Shown here: positions 38,488 to 48,836 of the stretch, piece after piece
How positions within the stretch are numbered: position 1 is the stretch's first letter
How the letters are laid out: every line of letters begins with the position of its first letter
NCBI RefSeq assembly: GCF_000348785.1
Contig: NC_020520.1
Coordinates: 1,984,001 to 2,048,000 of the forward strand
Direction of reading: 5' to 3'
DNA: 64,000 nt
Origin: Ilumatobacter coccineus YM16-304
GTDB taxonomy: Bacteria; Actinomycetota; Acidimicrobiia; Acidimicrobiales; Ilumatobacteraceae
Notes under the pieces: model-generated
Database searches by the model: none
Told to the model about the DNA's origin: nothing
Seen by the model: only the letters and a program-made list of their open reading frames with translations
Position numbers and translations under genes: made by a program

Positions 38488-39963
38488 TCAGGCGTCGACG
38501 AGCGGCGGGGGAGCGAAGCGCTGGCCGAGCACCGAGCTAATCTCTTCGCCGATGCTGATGATCTTGTGATCGGACCACTTCGGCCCGATCAGTTGCACGC
38601 CGACCGGAAGACCGTCGTCGGTGTGGCCGATCGGAATCGCCACCGACGGGAGGTGGGGCATCGTCGCCAGGCCGGCCCAGAACAGGATGCCGCGGTACGG
38701 CGCGTCGGCGCCGTTGACGCTGAACGTGCGTTTGCCGTAGGGGCGTTCGATGTCGTGAGGGAACGCGGCCACCGGAAGCACCGGCGCCATCACGACGTCG
38801 ACCTTGTCGAACACGTCGGCCCACGCTCGTTGCGCATGCGCTCGCTGCTCGTTCGCCGACAACCAGCCTCGGTGCGACAGCGTCGTGTCGCGGGCGAACA
38901 TCACGCCATCGTCGTCGACGACCGCGTCGGAGTCTCCCGCTTTCGCCACCAGGCTCTCCCACATGGCGCCGGGGATTCCTGGTGACAACGTCGAGTTGAG
39001 AAGCCGCATGTAGGTCCGATGGAGGTCGGCAGAGGCGATCGACGGACGGAGCTCGGGGTCGACCCGGGCGCCCTCGGTGGCGAGGCGACTGGCCGCTGCT
39101 TCGATGAGGTCCTTCACCGAGTTGTCGACGGGTGCCATCTCGTCGTCCGACCACACGCCGATGCGGAGGTCGGCGATGTCGGGCTGCTGTTCGAAGCGCG
39201 GGAGTTCGGCGCCGGGGATGCCACCGAACGCGGTGACCGAGTTGGTCAACACCTCGAGGAGCAGCCGGAGATCCCCGCACGATCGGCCGAGCGGTCCGAA
39301 CACGCCGAGGTCGCTCGACGTGAGTGAGCCGGACGGACCGGGAATGTGGCCGCGGCCCGAGACCAGACCGTGGGTGGTCTTGATGCCGAACACGCCGTTG
39401 AGGCTGGCGGGTTGGCGGATCGAGTTGCCGATGTCGCTGCCGACTTCGGCCGTGGTGAACCCGCAGGCGACCGCCGCGGCAGCGCCGCCCGACGATCCGC
39501 CGGCCGTGCGTGTGAGGTCCCACGGGTTGTTGGTCACGCCGTAGACGTCGTTGTAGGTCTGGTGGTCGCCGGCCATGTACGGCACATTCGTCTTCGCCCA
39601 GACGATGGCTCCCGCCCGACGGAGCAGTCGGACGACGTCGGCGTCACGGTCGGCCAGGTGGTCGGCGTGTTGCGGATCGCCGGCTGCGGTGACGAGATCG
39701 AGCGTTTCGTAGCAGTCCTTGATCGTCATCGGCAGGCCGTGCAACGGACCGCACTTCTCGCCTGCTGCTCGCGAGTTGTCGGCTGCGGTGGCCTCGGCAC
39801 GGGCTCGTTCGAGGTCCGTCGCCACGACCGCGTTGACGGCGGGGTTCATCCGCTCGATGTTCGCCAGCATGCCCTCGAGCAGTTCGACGCTCGACACCTC
39901 GCGCCGCTCGAGTGCCCGAATCAGTTGCACGGTGGTGGCGGTGGCGAGGTCGGGACTGCTCAT
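38488..39963 (-). CDS. Amidase signature family hydrolase
   Basis: A 491-residue amidase with the Ser-cisSer-Lys triad. The lysine lies in GLPMTIKDCYETL, the Gly/Ser-rich motif is DLTRTAGGSSGGAAAAVACGFTTAEVGSDIGNSIRQPAS, and the acylating Ser is in GSDIGNSIR. The IGNS replaces the more usual IGGS. The C-terminal VQLIGPKWSDHKIISIGEEI is typical. Substrates in this family range from aryl amides to Gln-tRNA; GatA is unlikely because gatC and gatB are absent. Its upstream region is occupied by the 36-bp tandem repeat array. Confidence 0.93.
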   Translation of the reverse strand: MSSPDLATATTVQLIRALERREVSSVELLEGMLANIERMNPAVNAVVATDLERARAEATAADNSRAAGEKCGPLHGLPMTIKDCYETLDLVTAAGDPQHADHLADRDADVVRLLRRAGAIVWAKTNVPYMAGDHQTYNDVYGVTNNPWDLTRTAGGSSGGAAAAVACGFTTAEVGSDIGNSIRQPASLNGVFGIKTTHGLVSGRGHIPGPSGSLTSSDLGVFGPLGRSCGDLRLLLEVLTNSVTAFGGIPGAELPRFEQQPDIADLRIGVWSDDEMAPVDNSVKDLIEAAASRLATEGARVDPELRPSIASADLHRTYMRLLNSTLSPGIPGAMWESLVAKAGDSDAVVDDDGVMFARDTTLSHRGWLSANEQRAHAQRAWADVFDKVDVVMAPVLPVAAFPHDIERPYGKRTFSVNGADAPYRGILFWAGLATMPHLPSVAIPIGHTDDGLPVGVQLIGPKWSDHKIISIGEEISSVLGQRFAPPPLVDA

Positions 39964-40038
39964 GCGGCGAGCGTAGTGATCACCCTCGCGAGCCAGGAAC
40001 CCACCACCCGACGGCGATTTCTGCCCAGGCTCGATGTC

Positions 40039-40233
40039 GTCGCGTGAGGGTGATTTTTGCCCAGGCTCGATGTGGTCGCGTGGGGGTGATTTTTGCCCAG
40101 TCCAAGTGTGGTCGCGTGGGGGTGATTTTTGCCCAGGCCAAATGTGGTCGCGTGGGGGTGATTTTTGCCCAGGCCAAATGTGGTCGCGTGGGGGTGATTT
40201 CTGCCCAGGCCAAATGTGGTCGCGTGGGGAGTT
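40039..40233. repeat. 36-bp tandem repeat array (five full units plus partial ends)
   Basis: Five head-to-tail 36-bp units start at 40039, 40075, 40111, 40147 and 40183, each beginning GTCGCGTG. Units 4 and 5 differ by a single base and unit 1 is the most diverged. A degenerate half unit precedes the array (about 40010-40038) and a 15-nt partial unit (40219-40233) runs up to the stop codon of the phosphatase gene. The units contain GTGATTTTTGCCCAGG, which is more AT-rich than the surroundings. All frames stay open through the repeats because 36 is a multiple of three, so the encoded 12-residue periods are a by-product. There are no spacers, so this is not a CRISPR. Confidence 0.9.
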
Positions 40234-41968
40234 ACTTTGCGGGGGTCGGGCGGCGCTCGCGGCCGCGGAACGTGCGCTTCCACGGGCCCTCGACGTCGCT
40301 CTGGCTGTCGCCGCTGATGTCGCCCTCGTCCCAGTCGCCGACCGGGGCGTAGTCGAGGTCGATCACCGCGAGAATGGTGTCGTCGTCGCGTCTGCGGCCC
40401 GACAGCATCGCCTCGATGAGTCCCTCCGGCTCGAGGCCGTGCGTCGAGATGGCCTGCTCGAACCGATCGAGTCCGTGGTCGATCGTCTCGTCACGGGTCT
40501 CGACGAGGCCATCGGAGTACATGGCGAGGGCCGAACCGAACGGCACCTCCACGGTGGCGGTGCAGCGCTCACCCTGCGGCAGGCCGATCAATGCGCTGTT
40601 CGCGCCATCGAGCCGTCGATATCCATCGGGCAGAACGAGCACGGGTGGCGGATGCCCGGCGCAGGCGTACTCCAGCGTGCGAGCATCCGGGTCGAAGACC
40701 CCGATCCACGCCGTGGAGAAGCGAATCGACGGTTCGATCTGGGAGAAGCCGTCGAGCTTGCTCAGCAGGCGTGCCGGCTCCGGATTGATCGCAGCCTCGA
40801 GAATCAGACCACTGCGCACGGCCACCATCGCCCGTGCCGATTTGAGGTCGTGTCCCACGATGTCGCCGACGCCGAACACGAGGCGGCCGTCTTGGGTCGG
40901 CCGCACGACATACCAGTCGCCACCGACTCCGACGTCTTGGATCGCGGCGTCGTACACGCCACGGACGCGGAAACCCTGACCGGCCATGGTGCGCGGCGGG
41001 AGAAGGAGCCCTTGGAGATCTTCGACGGTCTCCAGACGGCGCTTGACGTCGGCCGTGGCGATCGCCGCTTCGTTGGTCTCGGCAGCCACGAAGTAGGCGG
41101 TCATCGCGAACACCAGGAACTGCAGCTTCAGCGTGGTGAGTGCCGTCGAGGGAGCAAGACCCACGACCAGACCGTCGGGATCGGTCGACAGCGAGATTCC
41201 GACGATGATGGCGATGGCGATGCCGATCACGGCGACGGTTCGAACGTCGAACGAGGCGCCAGCGACGATCAGTGCGCCGAGCACGAGGAACATCAGTGGG
41301 AGATCGGTGGCGAAGAGCGTGATCGCCGTGCCGATCCACACACTGGCGAGCAGTATCAGAGCTGCTGGGCCGCGCCACGGCCGAGGGCCCGTCGTGGCGT
41401 TCCATGCCAGCAACGCGGGCGCGACCACCGCGACGCCGAGCGCATCGCCCAACCACCACTGCGGTCCGACCGAGGTGACCGGGGAGCCGAACTGCCACCA
41501 CGCCGTGAGCGCGCCGATCACCGACGACACGAACGGGCCGATCGCCACGGCGGCAATCGTGAACACGATGAGATCCCGTCGGCGTCCGAGATCGGGCAAC
41601 GTTCGAGAACCAGGGGAGCGATGCAGGAGGCGCCCGGCGACGATCGCCCCGACGAGCGGGCCGATGAAGTTGGCCGCGCTGAAGCCGAGCAGCGACGCCA
41701 TGTTGTCGAAGCGACCGACGGTCAGTCCCGTGGTGATCTCGCCGGCGACGACCGCAGCGACGACGACGGGCCAATCGCGGCGCGGCAGCGCGAGGAAGGC
41801 GACGACCGTCATCCCTGCCGGCGGGAAGAAGACCGCGGAGAGTCCCGACGCGTTGATGGTCCACCAGGCGAGGCTTCCGCCGATGACATAGAGCGCGTAG
41901 ACGATCAGGAACACGACGGGCGCTTCGATTCGTCGTGCTCGCAGCACGGGGTGTGCGTCCGTTTGCAT
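40232..41968 (-). CDS. MASE1-type membrane sensor with PP2C/SpoIIE phosphatase domain (RsbU-like)
   Basis: A 578-residue protein. The N-terminal half (about residues 15-310) has eight or more hydrophobic segments and the MASE1 landmarks GLSAVFFPPAGMTVVAFLALP and GDALGVAVVAPALLAW. After a short helix, the C-terminal half is a PP2C-type serine phosphatase: VGGDWYVVRP, VFGVGDIVGHDLKSARAMVAVRSGL, LEYACAGHPPPVLV and MYSDGLVETRDETIDHG supply the metal-binding Asp residues. RsbU-like phosphatases switch sigma factors by dephosphorylating anti-anti-sigma factors; no such partner is nearby. The ATG at 41968 has GGGAGG upstream. The stop codon touches the end of the 36-bp repeat array. Confidence 0.9.
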   Translation of the reverse strand: MQTDAHPVLRARRIEAPVVFLIVYALYVIGGSLAWWTINASGLSAVFFPPAGMTVVAFLALPRRDWPVVVAAVVAGEITTGLTVGRFDNMASLLGFSAANFIGPLVGAIVAGRLLHRSPGSRTLPDLGRRRDLIVFTIAAVAIGPFVSSVIGALTAWWQFGSPVTSVGPQWWLGDALGVAVVAPALLAWNATTGPRPWRGPAALILLASVWIGTAITLFATDLPLMFLVLGALIVAGASFDVRTVAVIGIAIAIIVGISLSTDPDGLVVGLAPSTALTTLKLQFLVFAMTAYFVAAETNEAAIATADVKRRLETVEDLQGLLLPPRTMAGQGFRVRGVYDAAIQDVGVGGDWYVVRPTQDGRLVFGVGDIVGHDLKSARAMVAVRSGLILEAAINPEPARLLSKLDGFSQIEPSIRFSTAWIGVFDPDARTLEYACAGHPPPVLVLPDGYRRLDGANSALIGLPQGERCTATVEVPFGSALAMYSDGLVETRDETIDHGLDRFEQAISTHGLEPEGLIEAMLSGRRRDDDTILAVIDLDYAPVGDWDEGDISGDSQSDVEGPWKRTFRGRERRPTPAK

Positions 41969-42176: not shown

Positions 42177-42731
42177 ATGGAGTTCCTGGATCCACGCGGT
42201 GTGCCGACTCGCGAGATGGAGTCGTACGATCTCACCACCGACCTGGTCGACGGCGACACCATCGCCCTGTTCGCCAACGGCTTTCCGGACTCGGTGGCCT
42301 TTCTCGAGCACGTCGAGTCGTCGCTCTCCCGAGAGCTGCCCGGTGTTCGCTTCCTGCACCTGAACAAGGGCAATGCGAGTGCGCTCGCCAGCCCGGAGCA
42401 CCTGTCGACGATCGCCGACTCGTGTTCCGCGGTCGTGGCCGCCTACGGGCATTGAGGCAGCTGTACTTCCGGCACCGTGCGTGACGGAATCGAGGTGGCT
42501 CGTCGAGGTCGAGCAGCGGTCGCTCTGGTGACCGAGCAGTTCTGGATGCAGGGTGACTCCGTCGCCCGGTCGGCGGGTATGCCCGACATCCCGCGGCTTC
42601 GACTCCCTCACCCGGTGGCCGGCACCGGCCACGACGCGATGGGGCAGGTCGCCGATGCGTTCGCCCGACGCATCGTCGACGTGCTGCGTGGTGACGCACG
42701 TCCCGACAACGACGCGGTCGAACCGGCATGA
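42177..42731 (+). CDS. UGSC-type selenoprotein, in-frame TGA at 42453-42455 read as selenocysteine
   Basis: Two open stretches in the same frame (42177-42452 and 42456-42731) are separated only by TGA. Read through, they give one 184-residue protein with the redox motif Sec-Gly-Ser-Cys at residues 93-96, in the context AAYGH-U-GSCTSGTVRDGIEVA. A family of prokaryotic (seleno)proteins is named for exactly this UGSC motif, with Cys replacing Sec in some members. The N-terminal half looks like an alpha/beta fold (TTDLVDGDTIALFANGFPDS, ADSCSAVVAAYGH) and the C-terminal half continues it (AAVALVTEQFWMQGDSVARSAG). A SECIS-like hairpin follows the TGA. The ATG at 42177 follows GGGGGG. The stop overlaps the next gene (ATGA). 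The function is unknown, but probably redox. Confidence 0.8.
42453..42489 (+). promoter_or_regulatory. Sec codon TGA with SECIS-like hairpin
   Basis: Downstream of the TGA, TTCCG (42467-42471) pairs with CGGAA (42485-42489). A single G/A mismatch (42472/42484) is followed by CAC (42473-42475) pairing with GTG (42481-42483). The 5-nt apical loop CGTGC (42476-42480) contains G-U. The loop begins 20 nt after the TGA, within the 16-37 nt window known for bacterial SECIS elements recognised by SelB. Confidence 0.65.
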
Positions 42732-43813
42732 GCGCGTCGATCATGACCGCTGCCGACGAGGCCGACGCGCTCGAGGTGCTGCATGCGTCGGGGTGTACCG
42801 ACGGCCTCCCCGTGGTGATCCCGACTCGCGAACGTGTCGAGCGCCTCGTGCTCGCCTCCGGTCTCGACGGTGACACGCTGCTCGGTGAGATGGGCCCGGG
42901 TGGCGGTGCGGCGACGATCGAGAAGGTCGCCATCAACGCGGTGATGGCCGGGTGCCTCCCCGATCACGTTCCGGTCGTGGTGGCAGCGATCAGAGCGCTG
43001 TTGCAGCCCGAGTTCGATCTCGGCGAGATGCAGTCCACGACGCACAGCACCGCGCCGTTGACCATCGTCAACGGGCCGGTCGTCAACCACTGCGACATCG
43101 TCGGAGGCTTCGGCGCACTCGGCCCGGGGCACCGGGCCAACGCCTCGATCGGCCGTGCGATCCGGTTGTGCATGATGAACATCGGAGACGCTCGCCCGGG
43201 TGTGTCCGACATGGCCCTGCTGGGGCACCCGGGCAAGTTCGGTCTGTGCCTGGCGGAAGACGAACGGTCGTCGCCCTGGGAACCGTGGTCGCACACGCTC
43301 GGTTACGGCCCGGATGACTCGACGGTGACGATCCTCGGCGCTGAGGCACCGCACTCGGTGGTGTTCACCAACGACGCCGACGACCCCGATTCGCCGAACC
43401 GGTTGTTGCGAGCGCTCGCCGCCGTCATCGCCAACACCGGCTCGAACAACGCCAACTTCGGTGCAGGTGCCGTCGCCGTCGCGCTCAACCCCGAACACGC
43501 CGACGTGCTCGCCGGGGCAGGCATGTCGCGAGCCGACGTGCGGTGCGAACTCCAGCGACTCGCGGTGAACACGCGCGGCCATCTCCGGTCGCTGAACACG
43601 GGGTTCATCCGGCCCGGCGACGACGATGACCCGATCCACGCCGTGCGACGCTCCGACGACATCGTGTTGTTCGTCGCTGGTGGAAGTGGTCTGTACTCCG
43701 CCGTCTTCCCGTCGTGGGCAGCCGGAGCCCACCGCAACGCGGTGGTGCACGAGCTGGTCGTCACGGGGGAATCGTGCGAGATCCCGTGGGCGGTCGGAGC
43801 GTCGCCCGAGTAG
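42728..43813 (+). CDS. Partner protein of the UGSC selenoprotein, function unknown
   Basis: A 361-residue protein whose ATG overlaps the selenoprotein stop, so the two are coupled. It contains DGLPVVIPTRERVERLVLASG, ATIEKVAINAVMAGCLPDHVPVVVAAI, TTHSTAPLTIVNGPVVNHCDIVGGFGALGPGHRANASIGRAIRLCMMNIGDARPG, and ANTGSNNANFGAGAVAVALNPEHADVL. Several conserved-looking Cys (VMAGCLP, NHCDIVGG, GLCLAEDE, DVRCELQRL) could take part in a thiol/selenol relay. I do not recognise an enzymatic class. Proteins with this layout are, to my memory, usual neighbours of UGSC proteins. The sequence shows no signal peptide or membrane segment, so it is cytoplasmic. Confidence 0.75.
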   Translation: MSASIMTAADEADALEVLHASGCTDGLPVVIPTRERVERLVLASGLDGDTLLGEMGPGGGAATIEKVAINAVMAGCLPDHVPVVVAAIRALLQPEFDLGEMQSTTHSTAPLTIVNGPVVNHCDIVGGFGALGPGHRANASIGRAIRLCMMNIGDARPGVSDMALLGHPGKFGLCLAEDERSSPWEPWSHTLGYGPDDSTVTILGAEAPHSVVFTNDADDPDSPNRLLRALAAVIANTGSNNANFGAGAVAVALNPEHADVLAGAGMSRADVRCELQRLAVNTRGHLRSLNTGFIRPGDDDDPIHAVRRSDDIVLFVAGGSGLYSAVFPSWAAGAHRNAVVHELVVTGESCEIPWAVGASPE

Positions 43814-45656: not shown

Positions 45657-47132
45657 ATGAAACACTCATCACGGCGCACGTCTCGTGCGCTCGTTGCACT
45701 CGGCTGCGTCTTCGGGCTCGTCGCTGCGTCTTGCGGAAGCGACGACGACGGCGACTCGTCGGCGCCGGAGACCGCGGCCGAACAGGCAGAGGAATCACCG
45801 GCCGAGGAAACCGACGAGCCGGCGGAGGAGACCGACGCGCCGGCCGAGGAGACCGATGCGCCGGCGGACGAGCCAGCCGACGAGACCGACGAGCCGTCAC
45901 CTTCCGGCGAGGCGACCGGTGAGCCGTTCCGGATCGGCGTGCAGAACCCGGAGGGCGACCCGAACGGCTCGTTCCCCGAGGCGTCGGCGGGCATTCTCGC
46001 AGCAGCGGAGTACGTGAACGCCGAGCTGGGCGGCCTCGGTGGTCGTCCGATCGAGATCGAGCTCTGCAAGAGCGTGATCTCACCCGACGACTCGCAGCGG
46101 TGCGCAAACGAACTGTCGGCGAGCGGCGTCGATCTCGTCATCTCGACGATCAACTTCTTCGGCAACTTCTACGAGATCTACCAGGGCTCCAACATTCCGG
46201 TCGTCGTCACGACGCCGGTGACGATCGCGGACTTCACCACCGAAGGAGCCTTCGCCATCGGCAGCGGTTGCCTCGGTGCGCACACCGCACTGGTCGAGTT
46301 CGTGACGAACCAGATCAACGACTTCGAAGGAATCACGGTCGAGCGTGTCGGCGTCCCGTGGGCCGACACCCCGCCGGGCGTCGTGTGCTACAACGACCTC
46401 GAAGCCAAGCCGCTCGACGTCATCAACGGCACCGAGCCGGGTGATTCGGCTCGCTTCGGTGAGCAGCCCGACCTGACGTACATCGGTGTGCCGGTCGCTC
46501 CGGCATCGCCCGACCTCACGCCGCAGGCGACCGAAGTGCTCTCGTTCGATCCCGACGCGATCATCTTCTCGGCCCAGGGCGCCGACTGCTGGAACCTCGT
46601 CGATGCGCTCGGTCGCATCGGTTGGACACCGGAGGAGACGCCGATGGTGATGTCGAACTCCTGCACGGACTTCGACGCCATGCGTGCCGCCGGCGACCTC
46701 GCGGTCGGTCTCTACATGATCGGCAACGTCGGCAGCATCCTGGCGAACCCCGAGGGGCTCACCGGCGATCACCTCGCCAACGTCGAGACCTACAACGAGA
46801 AGGCTCCGCAGTACGGCATGGCGCCGGAAGACATGACGAAGGGCTTCGGCGCTGCCGGGTTCGCGGCGATCATGAACATCTGGCAGGTCGCCAACGCCGT
46901 CGACGGTGACGTGACCGGCGATGCCATCGCCGAGGCGTTCAAGGCCACCGACGGCAGCACGCCGAACTTCGGTGGTGCGCCGCTCAACTGCGCCGGGGCG
47001 CCCGAGCCCTACGTTGCGGTGTGCGCTGCCGAACAGAGCATCGAGCGCTGGGACGGCGAGCAGCTGGAGACGGTCGTGCCGTCGATCTCCGGCGTCGACC
47101 TCGTCGCCGGAACCGAACTCCGTCCGGGCTGA
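45657..47132 (+). CDS. ABC-type substrate-binding lipoprotein (periplasmic-binding family 6-like), copy 1
   Basis: A 491-residue extracellular binding protein. The N-terminus is a lipoprotein signal peptide with lipobox LVAASC (Cys25). A strikingly acidic Glu/Asp/Ala/Thr/Pro linker of about 60 residues follows. The globular part resembles branched-chain amino acid/amide-type binding proteins (IGVQNPEGDPNGSFPEASAGILAAAEYVNAELGGLGGRPIEIELC, VPVVVTTPVTIADFTTEGAFAIG, AIIFSAQGADCWNLVDALGRIGW). Several paired Cys may form disulphides. No permease or ATPase genes accompany it. The next gene is a close tandem paralogue, including the leader. AGGGGA upstream of the ATG serves as ribosome-binding site. 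Confidence 0.88.
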   Translation: MKHSSRRTSRALVALGCVFGLVAASCGSDDDGDSSAPETAAEQAEESPAEETDEPAEETDAPAEETDAPADEPADETDEPSPSGEATGEPFRIGVQNPEGDPNGSFPEASAGILAAAEYVNAELGGLGGRPIEIELCKSVISPDDSQRCANELSASGVDLVISTINFFGNFYEIYQGSNIPVVVTTPVTIADFTTEGAFAIGSGCLGAHTALVEFVTNQINDFEGITVERVGVPWADTPPGVVCYNDLEAKPLDVINGTEPGDSARFGEQPDLTYIGVPVAPASPDLTPQATEVLSFDPDAIIFSAQGADCWNLVDALGRIGWTPEETPMVMSNSCTDFDAMRAAGDLAVGLYMIGNVGSILANPEGLTGDHLANVETYNEKAPQYGMAPEDMTKGFGAAGFAAIMNIWQVANAVDGDVTGDAIAEAFKATDGSTPNFGGAPLNCAGAPEPYVAVCAAEQSIERWDGEQLETVVPSISGVDLVAGTELRPG

Positions 47133-47200: not shown

Positions 47201-47290
47201 TGTCGCGTCCGGGGTCGGTTGTGTTGGCACGCCAAAGACGTCAGTTCGTCTGACGCTTTCCTGATCGAGGCCACGACATAGTGTGACACT

Positions 47291-47316
47291 CGACACGGAC
47301 CGGGGGGTCCGCGTCG
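47291..47316 (+). promoter_or_regulatory. Leader hairpin of second substrate-binding lipoprotein gene
   Basis: CGAC (47291-47294) pairs with GTCG (47313-47316), with a one-base mismatch, then CGGACC / GGTCCG around a GGGG loop (47302-47305). It matches the hairpin before copy 1: one inner pair is A-T here and a G-T wobble there, so pairing is preserved. A CATAGTGT -10-like box lies 6 nt upstream (TAGTGT at 47279-47284). Confidence 0.5.
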
Positions 47317-47366
47317 GCCAGGGCAGCACCAGTTGTCGATGGCTTCATCTGAACAGGGGATTCAAC

Positions 47367-48836
47367 ATGAAACATTCACCACGGCGTACGTCACGTGCGC
47401 TCATTGCTCTCGGGTGCGTCTTCGGACTCGTCGCCGCATCCTGCGGAAGCGACGACGACGCGGGCGGCGACCCGCCCGAGACTGCAGCCGAGCAAGTCGA
47501 AGAGACGCCAGCAGAAGAACCGGCCGAAGAGCCACCCGCTGAAACCGACGAACCCGCCGAAGAGTCGGCGGAAGAACCGGCCGAAGAAACCGATGAGCCG
47601 GCACCGTCCGGTGAAGCGACCGGCGAACCGATCAAGATCGGTGTGCAGAACCCCGAGGGCGACCCGAACGGATCGTTCCCGGAAGCGTCGCTCGGTATCC
47701 AAGCGGCCGCCGACTACGTCAACGCCGAGCTCGGCGGAATCGGAGGACGACCGATCGAGATCGAGCTCTGCAAGAGCGTGATCTCGCCCGACGACTCGCA
47801 GCGATGCGCGAACGAACTCGCTGCCAGCGAGGTCGAGATGGTCATCTCGACCATCAACTTCTTCGGCAACTTCTACGAGATCTTCAAGGGCTCCGACATC
47901 CCGGTCATCGTCACCACGCCGGTCACGATTGCCGACTTCACCACCGAAGGTGCGTTCGCGATCGGAAGTGGTTGCCTCGGCGCCCACACCGGGCTCGTCG
48001 AGTTCGCGACCAACCAGATCGAGGAGTTCGAAGACATCACCGTCGAACGAGTCGGTATTCCGTGGGCCGACACGCCTCCCGGCGTGGTCTGCTACAACGA
48101 CCTCGAAGCGAAACCGGTCGACGTGATCAACGGCACCGAGCCGGGTGATTCGGTTCGAGCCGGTGAGCGCCCCGACCTGACGTACATCGGCGTGCCGGTC
48201 GCTCCGGCGTCGGCCGACCTCACACCGCAGGCGACCGAAGTGCTCGCGTTCGATCCGGATGTGATCATCTTCTCGGCGCAGGGCGCCGACTGCTGGAACC
48301 TCGTCGATGCGATGGGTCGTATCGGCTGGAGCCCGGAGGAGACGCCGATGGTGATGTCGGGTTCGTGCATCGACTTCGACGCGATGCGCGCCGCCGGACC
48401 GCTCGCCGAGGGGCTCTACATGATCGGCAACGTCGGCGGCGTGTTGGCCAACCCCGAGGGTCTCGAGGGCGACCATCTGGAGAACGTCCTGACGTATCGC
48501 GAGAAGGCGCCTCAGTACGGCATGTCGGAAGCCGACATGAACAAGGGCTTCGGGGCCGCCGGATTCGCAGCGGTCATGAACATCTGGGAGATCGCCAACG
48601 GCATCGACGGTGACGTCGACGGTCAGGCGATCGCCGATGCGTTCGCCGCGACCGACGGCAGTGCCTCGACGTTCGGCGGTGCGCCTCTCAACTGCAGCGC
48701 CGCACCGACGCCGTACGTTGCGGTCTGCGCCGCCGAAGTCAGCATCGAGCGATGGGACGGCGAGCAACTCGTCAACGTGATCCCGTCGCTGTCCGGTATC
48801 GACCTCGTCGCCGGTACCGAGTTGCGCCCGGGCTGA
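47367..48836 (+). CDS. ABC-type substrate-binding lipoprotein, copy 2 (tandem paralogue)
   Basis: A 489-residue paralogue of the preceding gene, nearly colinear with it. It has the same signal peptide (ALGCVFGLVAASC), an acidic linker of different composition rich in EEPAEE-type repeats, and almost the same core (VISPDDSQRCANEL, INFFGNFYEI, CLGAHTGLVEFATNQIEEFEDITVERVG, WADTPPGVVCYNDLEAKP). Differences concentrate in the linker and in scattered surface positions, for example GPLAEGLYMIGNVGGVL against GDLAVGLYMIGNVGSIL. The two presumably bind related ligands. The ATG at 47367 follows AGGGGATTCAAC. No transporter subunits are adjacent. Confidence 0.88.
   Translation: MKHSPRRTSRALIALGCVFGLVAASCGSDDDAGGDPPETAAEQVEETPAEEPAEEPPAETDEPAEESAEEPAEETDEPAPSGEATGEPIKIGVQNPEGDPNGSFPEASLGIQAAADYVNAELGGIGGRPIEIELCKSVISPDDSQRCANELAASEVEMVISTINFFGNFYEIFKGSDIPVIVTTPVTIADFTTEGAFAIGSGCLGAHTGLVEFATNQIEEFEDITVERVGIPWADTPPGVVCYNDLEAKPVDVINGTEPGDSVRAGERPDLTYIGVPVAPASADLTPQATEVLAFDPDVIIFSAQGADCWNLVDAMGRIGWSPEETPMVMSGSCIDFDAMRAAGPLAEGLYMIGNVGGVLANPEGLEGDHLENVLTYREKAPQYGMSEADMNKGFGAAGFAAVMNIWEIANGIDGDVDGQAIADAFAATDGSASTFGGAPLNCSAAPTPYVAVCAAEVSIERWDGEQLVNVIPSLSGIDLVAGTELRPG

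Follow-up and report, generated by a model that had tools for sequence, protein, structure and literature searches.

UGSC-containing selenoproteins are described in the Global Ocean Sampling (GOS) survey of 2008, passages of which report 255 such sequences, rank them among the commonest marine selenoproteins, describe a fusion with a domain called 'Unknown_1' and suggest that they are thioredoxin-like thiol-disulfide oxidoreductases (PMC2398784). According to passages of subsequent work, UGSC accounted for 8.2% in a later survey; UGSC selenoproteins are reported in Geodermatophilaceae even with UAG as the selenocysteine (Sec) codon (PMC5330540); and a 2026 review of prokaryotic selenoproteins calls UGSC functions, where it touches on them, largely uncharacterized (PMC13188914). 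How does a gene compare with these proteins if standard gene calling leaves it in two pieces? In the stretch of DNA analysed here (64,000 nt; hereafter the window), a single forward-strand frame runs from the ATG at 42177-42179 through a TGA at 42453-42455 to the terminal TGA at 42729-42731 without any further stop, and its read-through product (42177-42731, 184 residues) carries Sec at position 93 and Cys at position 96 (codon 42462-42464), i.e. the motif U93-G94-S95-C96.

A preliminary description of this DNA had proposed that the frames on both sides of the internal TGA share one phase and are both coding, and that read-through creates the Sec-Gly-Ser-Cys motif of a known family. Both proposals hold: one Pfam profile (UGSC, PF24696) spans the two halves, covering residues 3-171 of the read-through protein with 138.2 bits against a gathering cut-off of 25 (E 3.9e-40), and codon changes relative to the nearest relative (L084) are mostly synonymous in each half, i.e. 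24 synonymous and 16 others of 80 upstream, and 23 and 10 of 74 downstream. Upstream of the TGA, the comparison gives 22 synonymous and 33 other changes with L073, and 22 and 30 with L074. The anticipated splitting by gene calling is also seen, the standard code yielding a piece that measures 126 aa when begun at a preceding GTG (92 aa when begun at the ATG) and another of 84 aa, which illustrates how such genes are lost by plain gene calling; and the predicted ATGA overlap with the next gene, whose ATG begins at 42728, is found at 42728-42731. The NCBIfam equivalog model for UGSC (NF041046) scores the protein at 96.3 bits, under its curated cut-off of 125, so that membership is assigned in the wider Pfam family alone, where the protein counts as divergent. 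Cys96 is invariant in an alignment of the window with 41 of the 67 UGSC stretches listed, the rows of which were picked for the exact motif; it is not universal, as L137 reads UGSS and L148 reads CGTS.

Relatives were gathered with the downstream partner gene as the query, so that the TGA was unable to bias the sample. A UGSC match is present at 73 of the 80 named loci, and the 77 matches comprise 63 with TGA, six with Cys and eight without an exact [UC]GSC string, which by eye resolve into six with TGA, one with Cys (L148) and one with neither Sec nor Cys (L151, a weak homologue of 58.6 bits). A tree of the quick kind, with long branches flagged and with the exclusion of identical matches, of matches scoring below 80 bits or shorter than 120 residues and of those lacking the exact motif, contains 119 rows (106 Sec, 13 Cys) and implies at least seven changes of label, three of them forced by starred branches. 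The window, whose nearest row is from an uncultured Ilumatobacter, falls inside a 48-row clade that is starred and comprises 44 Sec and four Cys rows; homologues thus carry either TGA or Cys at the Sec site, as asked for earlier, L151 being the exception among the matches. Acidimicrobiia occur in this clade side by side with Pseudomonadales and other Proteobacteria, which makes transfer between phyla likely. One further clade member resides on a contig titled as a Klebsiella pneumoniae MAG (L109), which is probably mis-named or mis-binned.

The genome, a single contig of 4,830,181 bases, contains all four components of the Sec machinery for which a search had been advised. selA scores 413 bits; selB lies 41 nt from it and scores 275 bits against a cut-off of 242, being matched over positions 2-346 of the 581 in the profile; tRNA-Sec, with anticodon TCA, scores 66.5 bits, above a cut-off that is also passed in 5 of 14 control genomes; and selD scores 369 bits. 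The last of these has its own in-frame TGA within SHGAGUGCKLAP (L161; G000:C1:2441028-2441951, minus strand), suggesting that selenophosphate synthetase is here probably itself a selenoprotein. The genome holds three UGSC genes with one in-frame TGA each, the third of which (L011; G000:C1:634318-634845 and on, minus strand) has the motif CUGSCTPAV and forms an in-frame fusion with a partner domain. Two PrdB-like genes (L188 and L208; G000:C1:313708-314133, minus strand, and 1392006-1392428, plus strand, each with its downstream extension) contain a TGA in frame, within the motifs UPLC and UPVC, followed in each by a hairpin with the loop CGUGA, and probably represent two more selenoproteins. 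A clear selA (E under 1e-30) was found in 117 of 138 genomes with UGSC versus 142 of 257 without it (odds ratio 4.5), with 16 weak matches (E above 1e-30) scored as absent. Among the 21 UGSC genomes with no clear selA, six have a UGSC match free of a stop (G023, G141, G217, G218, G314 and G340; the site reads as Cys in G141, G218 and G314), five, all of them drafts, have a TGA in the match (G188, G292, G361, G362 and G377), and ten have no UGSC match among the matches listed.

The stem-loop pointed out previously, UUCCG-G-CAC-[CGUGC]-GUG-A-CGGAA at 42467-42489, is present as described, with its apical pentaloop (CGUGC, 42476-42480) 20 nt after the TGA and with G-U in the loop. Its assignment as a SECIS element stands in so far as the core, CCG-G-CAC-[CGUGC]-GUG-A-CGG (42469-42487), is kept at the RNA level in relatives, and gets no support from folding energy. 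The conservation is seen in codons +6 to +10 after the TGA (GGC ACC GTG CGT GAC), i.e. the 15-nt block GGCACCGTGCGTGAC at 42471-42485, in which 42 distinct Sec rows of the clade show no synonymous change, one row having Ser for Arg. Out of 28 conserved, degenerate columns between -30 and +44 in these 42 rows, only these five consecutive hairpin columns are frozen, and the block is altered in all four Cys relatives, partly through amino-acid change. The string TGA-N15-GGCACCGTGCGTGAC occurs in 12 of 395 genomes of the class, once in each and, by coordinates, at UGSC genes, with a reversed control giving 0. Compensation in the lower stem takes the form of G-C in place of C-G in five rows and of U-A in three; not one of 500 shuffles attains these eight cells or the covariation score, but 259 do attain the count of two compensatory pairs. 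Four core pairs never vary, and the invariant upper stem consequently says nothing on covariation; the outer pair, columns 16-36, is unpaired in 37 of the 42 rows.

Folding energy, by contrast, is ordinary against shuffles in each of three stretches (z -0.25, +0.93 and -0.00), the hairpin being part of the best fold of 42453-42500 and 42440-42510, and another fold being best for 42453-42493 (z +0.93). Against synonymous recodings, with identical 63-base stretches, edge-cut and N-bearing rows dropped, the window's clade averages z +0.49 in its 42 Sec rows and -0.04 in its four Cys rows, and energy was for this reason rejected as a SECIS test in the clade; across the remaining rows it does separate 63 Sec rows (mean z -1.19) from 10 Cys rows (+0.02). 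Rfam at its gathering scores matched nothing over the 64,000-nt window. A SECIS can be found through codon freezing where folding energy misses it, and here it is freezing and compensation, with an energy that is not unusual, that argue for a hairpin just downstream of the UGA whose small apical loop contains G. Canonical UGSC rows carry a different hairpin, with a seven-pair stem and a loop that is mostly AGUGU, in which 96.3% of cells pair in 61 rows and 37 compensatory cells fall in four pairs (alignment A3, from which L011 and the first L127 row were excluded). The loops of the genome's three UGSC and two PrdB-like genes, AGUGU, CGUGC, CGUGAU, CGUGA and CGUGA, all hold GUG; they were assigned by stem pairing, AGUGU and CGUGC being read from the stem where the computed best fold differs. 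The element of selD looks unlike them.

Could the TGA nevertheless do what the standard code says and end translation, making the second half the relic of a former Cys gene broken by a nonsense mutation or a sequencing error? The lack of support for the SECIS from folding energy would fit such a history. It deserves practically no credence, however, when the same codon is TGA in 44 of the 48 clade rows and a TGA also interrupts the genome's two other UGSC genes, when tRNA-Sec, selA, selB and selD are all at hand, when the codon freeze is limited to the hairpin, and when synonymous changes outnumber others in both halves against L084. That a near-cognate tRNA places another amino acid, e.g. Trp or Cys, at the UGA is also very improbable, given a tRNA-Sec with anticodon TCA alongside selA, selB and selD, given that Cys is the replacement in relatives, and given that the frozen block is absent from the four Cys relatives. 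Recoding as Sec, as originally proposed, is thus supported by the machinery, by the exchange of TGA and Cys among homologues and by the frozen codons, and the gene very probably encodes a genuine selenoprotein of UGSC type, a known family whose function is unexplained. Comparison strongly supports a mechanism in which SelB and Sec-tRNA(UCA) would read UGA 42453-42455 as selenocysteine and the hairpin just downstream of it would direct the insertion.

The partner gene (42728-43813, forward strand, 361 aa) belongs to an unnamed family with Cys76 and Cys174 invariant in a 36-row alignment (A5; L088, L103, L135, L137, L144 and L151 dropped, of 42). Across 395 genomes of the class, by lists transcribed by hand, both genes occur in 132, UGSC only in six and the partner only in three. 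UGSC comes first at 40 of the 41 named loci of the clade, 6-87 nt separating its match from that of the partner, and a contig end cuts the remaining locus; the 39 loci outside the clade comprise 20 UGSC-first, 10 partner-first, three in which the genes are not adjacent and six without UGSC, two of which sit at a contig end. In the L011 fusion, UGSC and the partner domain share one frame of about 570 residues, from which Cys174 of the partner is missing. (L015, L022 and L070, of 33, were dropped from alignment A1; the UGSC alignment of 41 stretches plus the window is A4.) To judge from the published description of the fusion, 'Unknown_1' of the GOS paper may be the same family as the window's partner; passages of the open-licence PubMed Central literature contain no statement that was found of a separate, near-obligate UGSC partner. 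The neighbourhood was examined for hints of the substrate but yielded none: its families, taken from 60 of 150 extracted ORFs at 30 clade loci plus two window genes, are mixed and largely catabolic, none occurring in more than 4 of 62. Elsewhere in the window, an array of near-identical repeats at 39960-40283 gives repeated peptides such as AQAKCGRVGVI in translation, and two adjacent, closely alike ORFs lie at 45657-47132 and 47283-48836, the first of which matches the substrate-binding family Peripla_BP_6 (Pfam).

What kind of protein is the partner? It has no Pfam match, its 36 aligned members reaching at best E 0.02 against Pfam and E 0.059 against NCBIfam, and profile searches of PDB sequences gave best E values of 0.34 for the partner and 0.14 for UGSC. 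Its structure model (pLDDT 89.8) led to candidates that were rejected: the first 17 Foldseek rows are class I fumarases (E 7.8e-5) but with TM scores of 0.22-0.27, and the best VIA match, a cyclic amide hydrolase (Z 5.6, rmsd 2.8 over 80), was not accepted. Kinship with GrdE (PF09338) was likewise dismissed, as the score of 22.2 is exceeded among 25 column shuffles, which go up to 28.4, and no relation to that family is detectable.

The model of the UGSC protein (pLDDT 93.7) is an alpha/beta fold of five alternating strand-helix units, in which Sec93 is placed between a strand (85-91) and a helix (94-109). Most of its listed PDB matches resemble Rossmann, flavodoxin or receiver folds, at modest Z, the best VIA match being a designed protein (Z 11.5, rmsd 2.9 over 125); they are of the common alpha/beta kind and show no function. 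No thioredoxin is among those listed, which is compatible with either fold. Thioredoxin itself has another strand-helix order, and the predicted fold therefore departs from the GOS suggestion, sharing with thioredoxin-like selenoproteins the UxxC motif and differing from them in the predicted order of strands and helices. The UxxC motif is what would make UGSC a thiol-disulfide oxidoreductase of thioredoxin-like fold with an ordinary redox motif; this is rather unlikely in the light of the modelled topology, the character of the PDB matches and the profile similarity to GrdB/PrdB described next, with a thiol-redox role within another fold being possible.

When GrdB and PrdB sequences were taken from the phylum and extended to the Sec motif, hhalign matched the UGSC profile to 14 GrdB-type rows at 84% (score 43), to 11 PrdB-like rows at 68% (score 38) and to the pooled set, which had no shuffle control, at 94% (score 55), over spans of 63-106 columns and with Sec entered as Cys on both sides, which raises the score; 40 column shuffles each of the GrdB-type and PrdB-like sets scored at most 19.8. 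Within the Pfam model, GrdB and PrdB gave 8.6% and 0.5%, i.e. the match appears only after extension to the Sec motif, and at E 0.001 the UGSC genes are not among the genome's matches to PF07355. The likeness is a distant profile similarity only, located beyond the end of the Pfam model. The GrdB-type genes of the phylum (L163-L176) have UGTG at the TGA in 13 of 14 cases and UGTS in the other, with no second Cys of a UxxC motif. As for relatedness between UGSC and GrdB/PrdB, no statement was found in passages of the open-licence PubMed Central literature.

Near-obligate adjacency and the natural fusion support the view that the UGSC protein and the product of the overlapping gene (42728-43813) would together form a two-component enzyme. 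The likeliest role, though at somewhat less than even chances, is that Sec93, at the start of the helix, would act in it as a nucleophilic or reducing selenol for reductive bond cleavage in a small organic substrate, by analogy with GrdB and PrdB, and that Cys96 would help to recycle it; the partner might, still more tentatively, supply the substrate site or the electron input. Sequence conservation suggests that Cys76 and Cys174 of the partner could serve in redox or metal binding, and this invariance in the 36-row alignment, together with the lack of credible matches to Pfam and NCBIfam profiles or to PDB sequences, would also suit a maturation or electron-transfer factor in place of a substrate-binding subunit. 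Class I fumarases hold Fe-S, and the weak Foldseek likeness to them (E 7.8e-5 but TM 0.24) points the same way. Such a factor is nonetheless somewhat unlikely, as the fusion and the near 1:1 adjacency are more in keeping with a stoichiometric subunit than with a factor that is shared, and as Cys174 is missing in the L011 fusion. Reading the pair as a two-component enzyme leads to a tentative and, on balance, doubtful proposal: UGSC and its partner, present in Acidimicrobiia, Pseudomonadales, Chloroflexota and others, may constitute an undescribed selenoenzyme. A compact domain related to the selenol domain of GrdB/PrdB would in that case work with a substrate subunit of unrecognised fold, and the enzyme would cleave bonds reductively outside the amino-acid fermentations that are the classic setting of GrdB and PrdB. 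With a partner that is nearly obligate, a fold modelled with confidence and the GrdB/PrdB link, a test of function becomes possible.

Compared with GrdB of glycine/sarcosine/betaine reductase and PrdB of D-proline reductase (PF07355), the UGSC protein has a similar sequence at and after Sec; unlike them, it consists of a single small domain, has a partner that does not resemble GrdE and gives no match to PF07355 at E 0.001. The known UGSC selenoproteins (PF24696, NF041046, PMC2398784) resemble the window gene, as far as passages on them tell, in the Pfam match over residues 3-171, the UGSC motif, the Sec/Cys exchange, a hairpin after the UGA and a fusion partner domain. The window gene, in contrast, lies below the NF041046 cut-off and in a separate starred clade, and the hairpin of this clade differs from that of canonical UGSC rows in its sequence, in a G-A mismatch in the stem and in the distance from the UGA to the loop, which is two nt greater. 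What the locus adds to the known family is thus a putative clade-specific SECIS, a near-obligate unnamed partner and a link to GrdB/PrdB.
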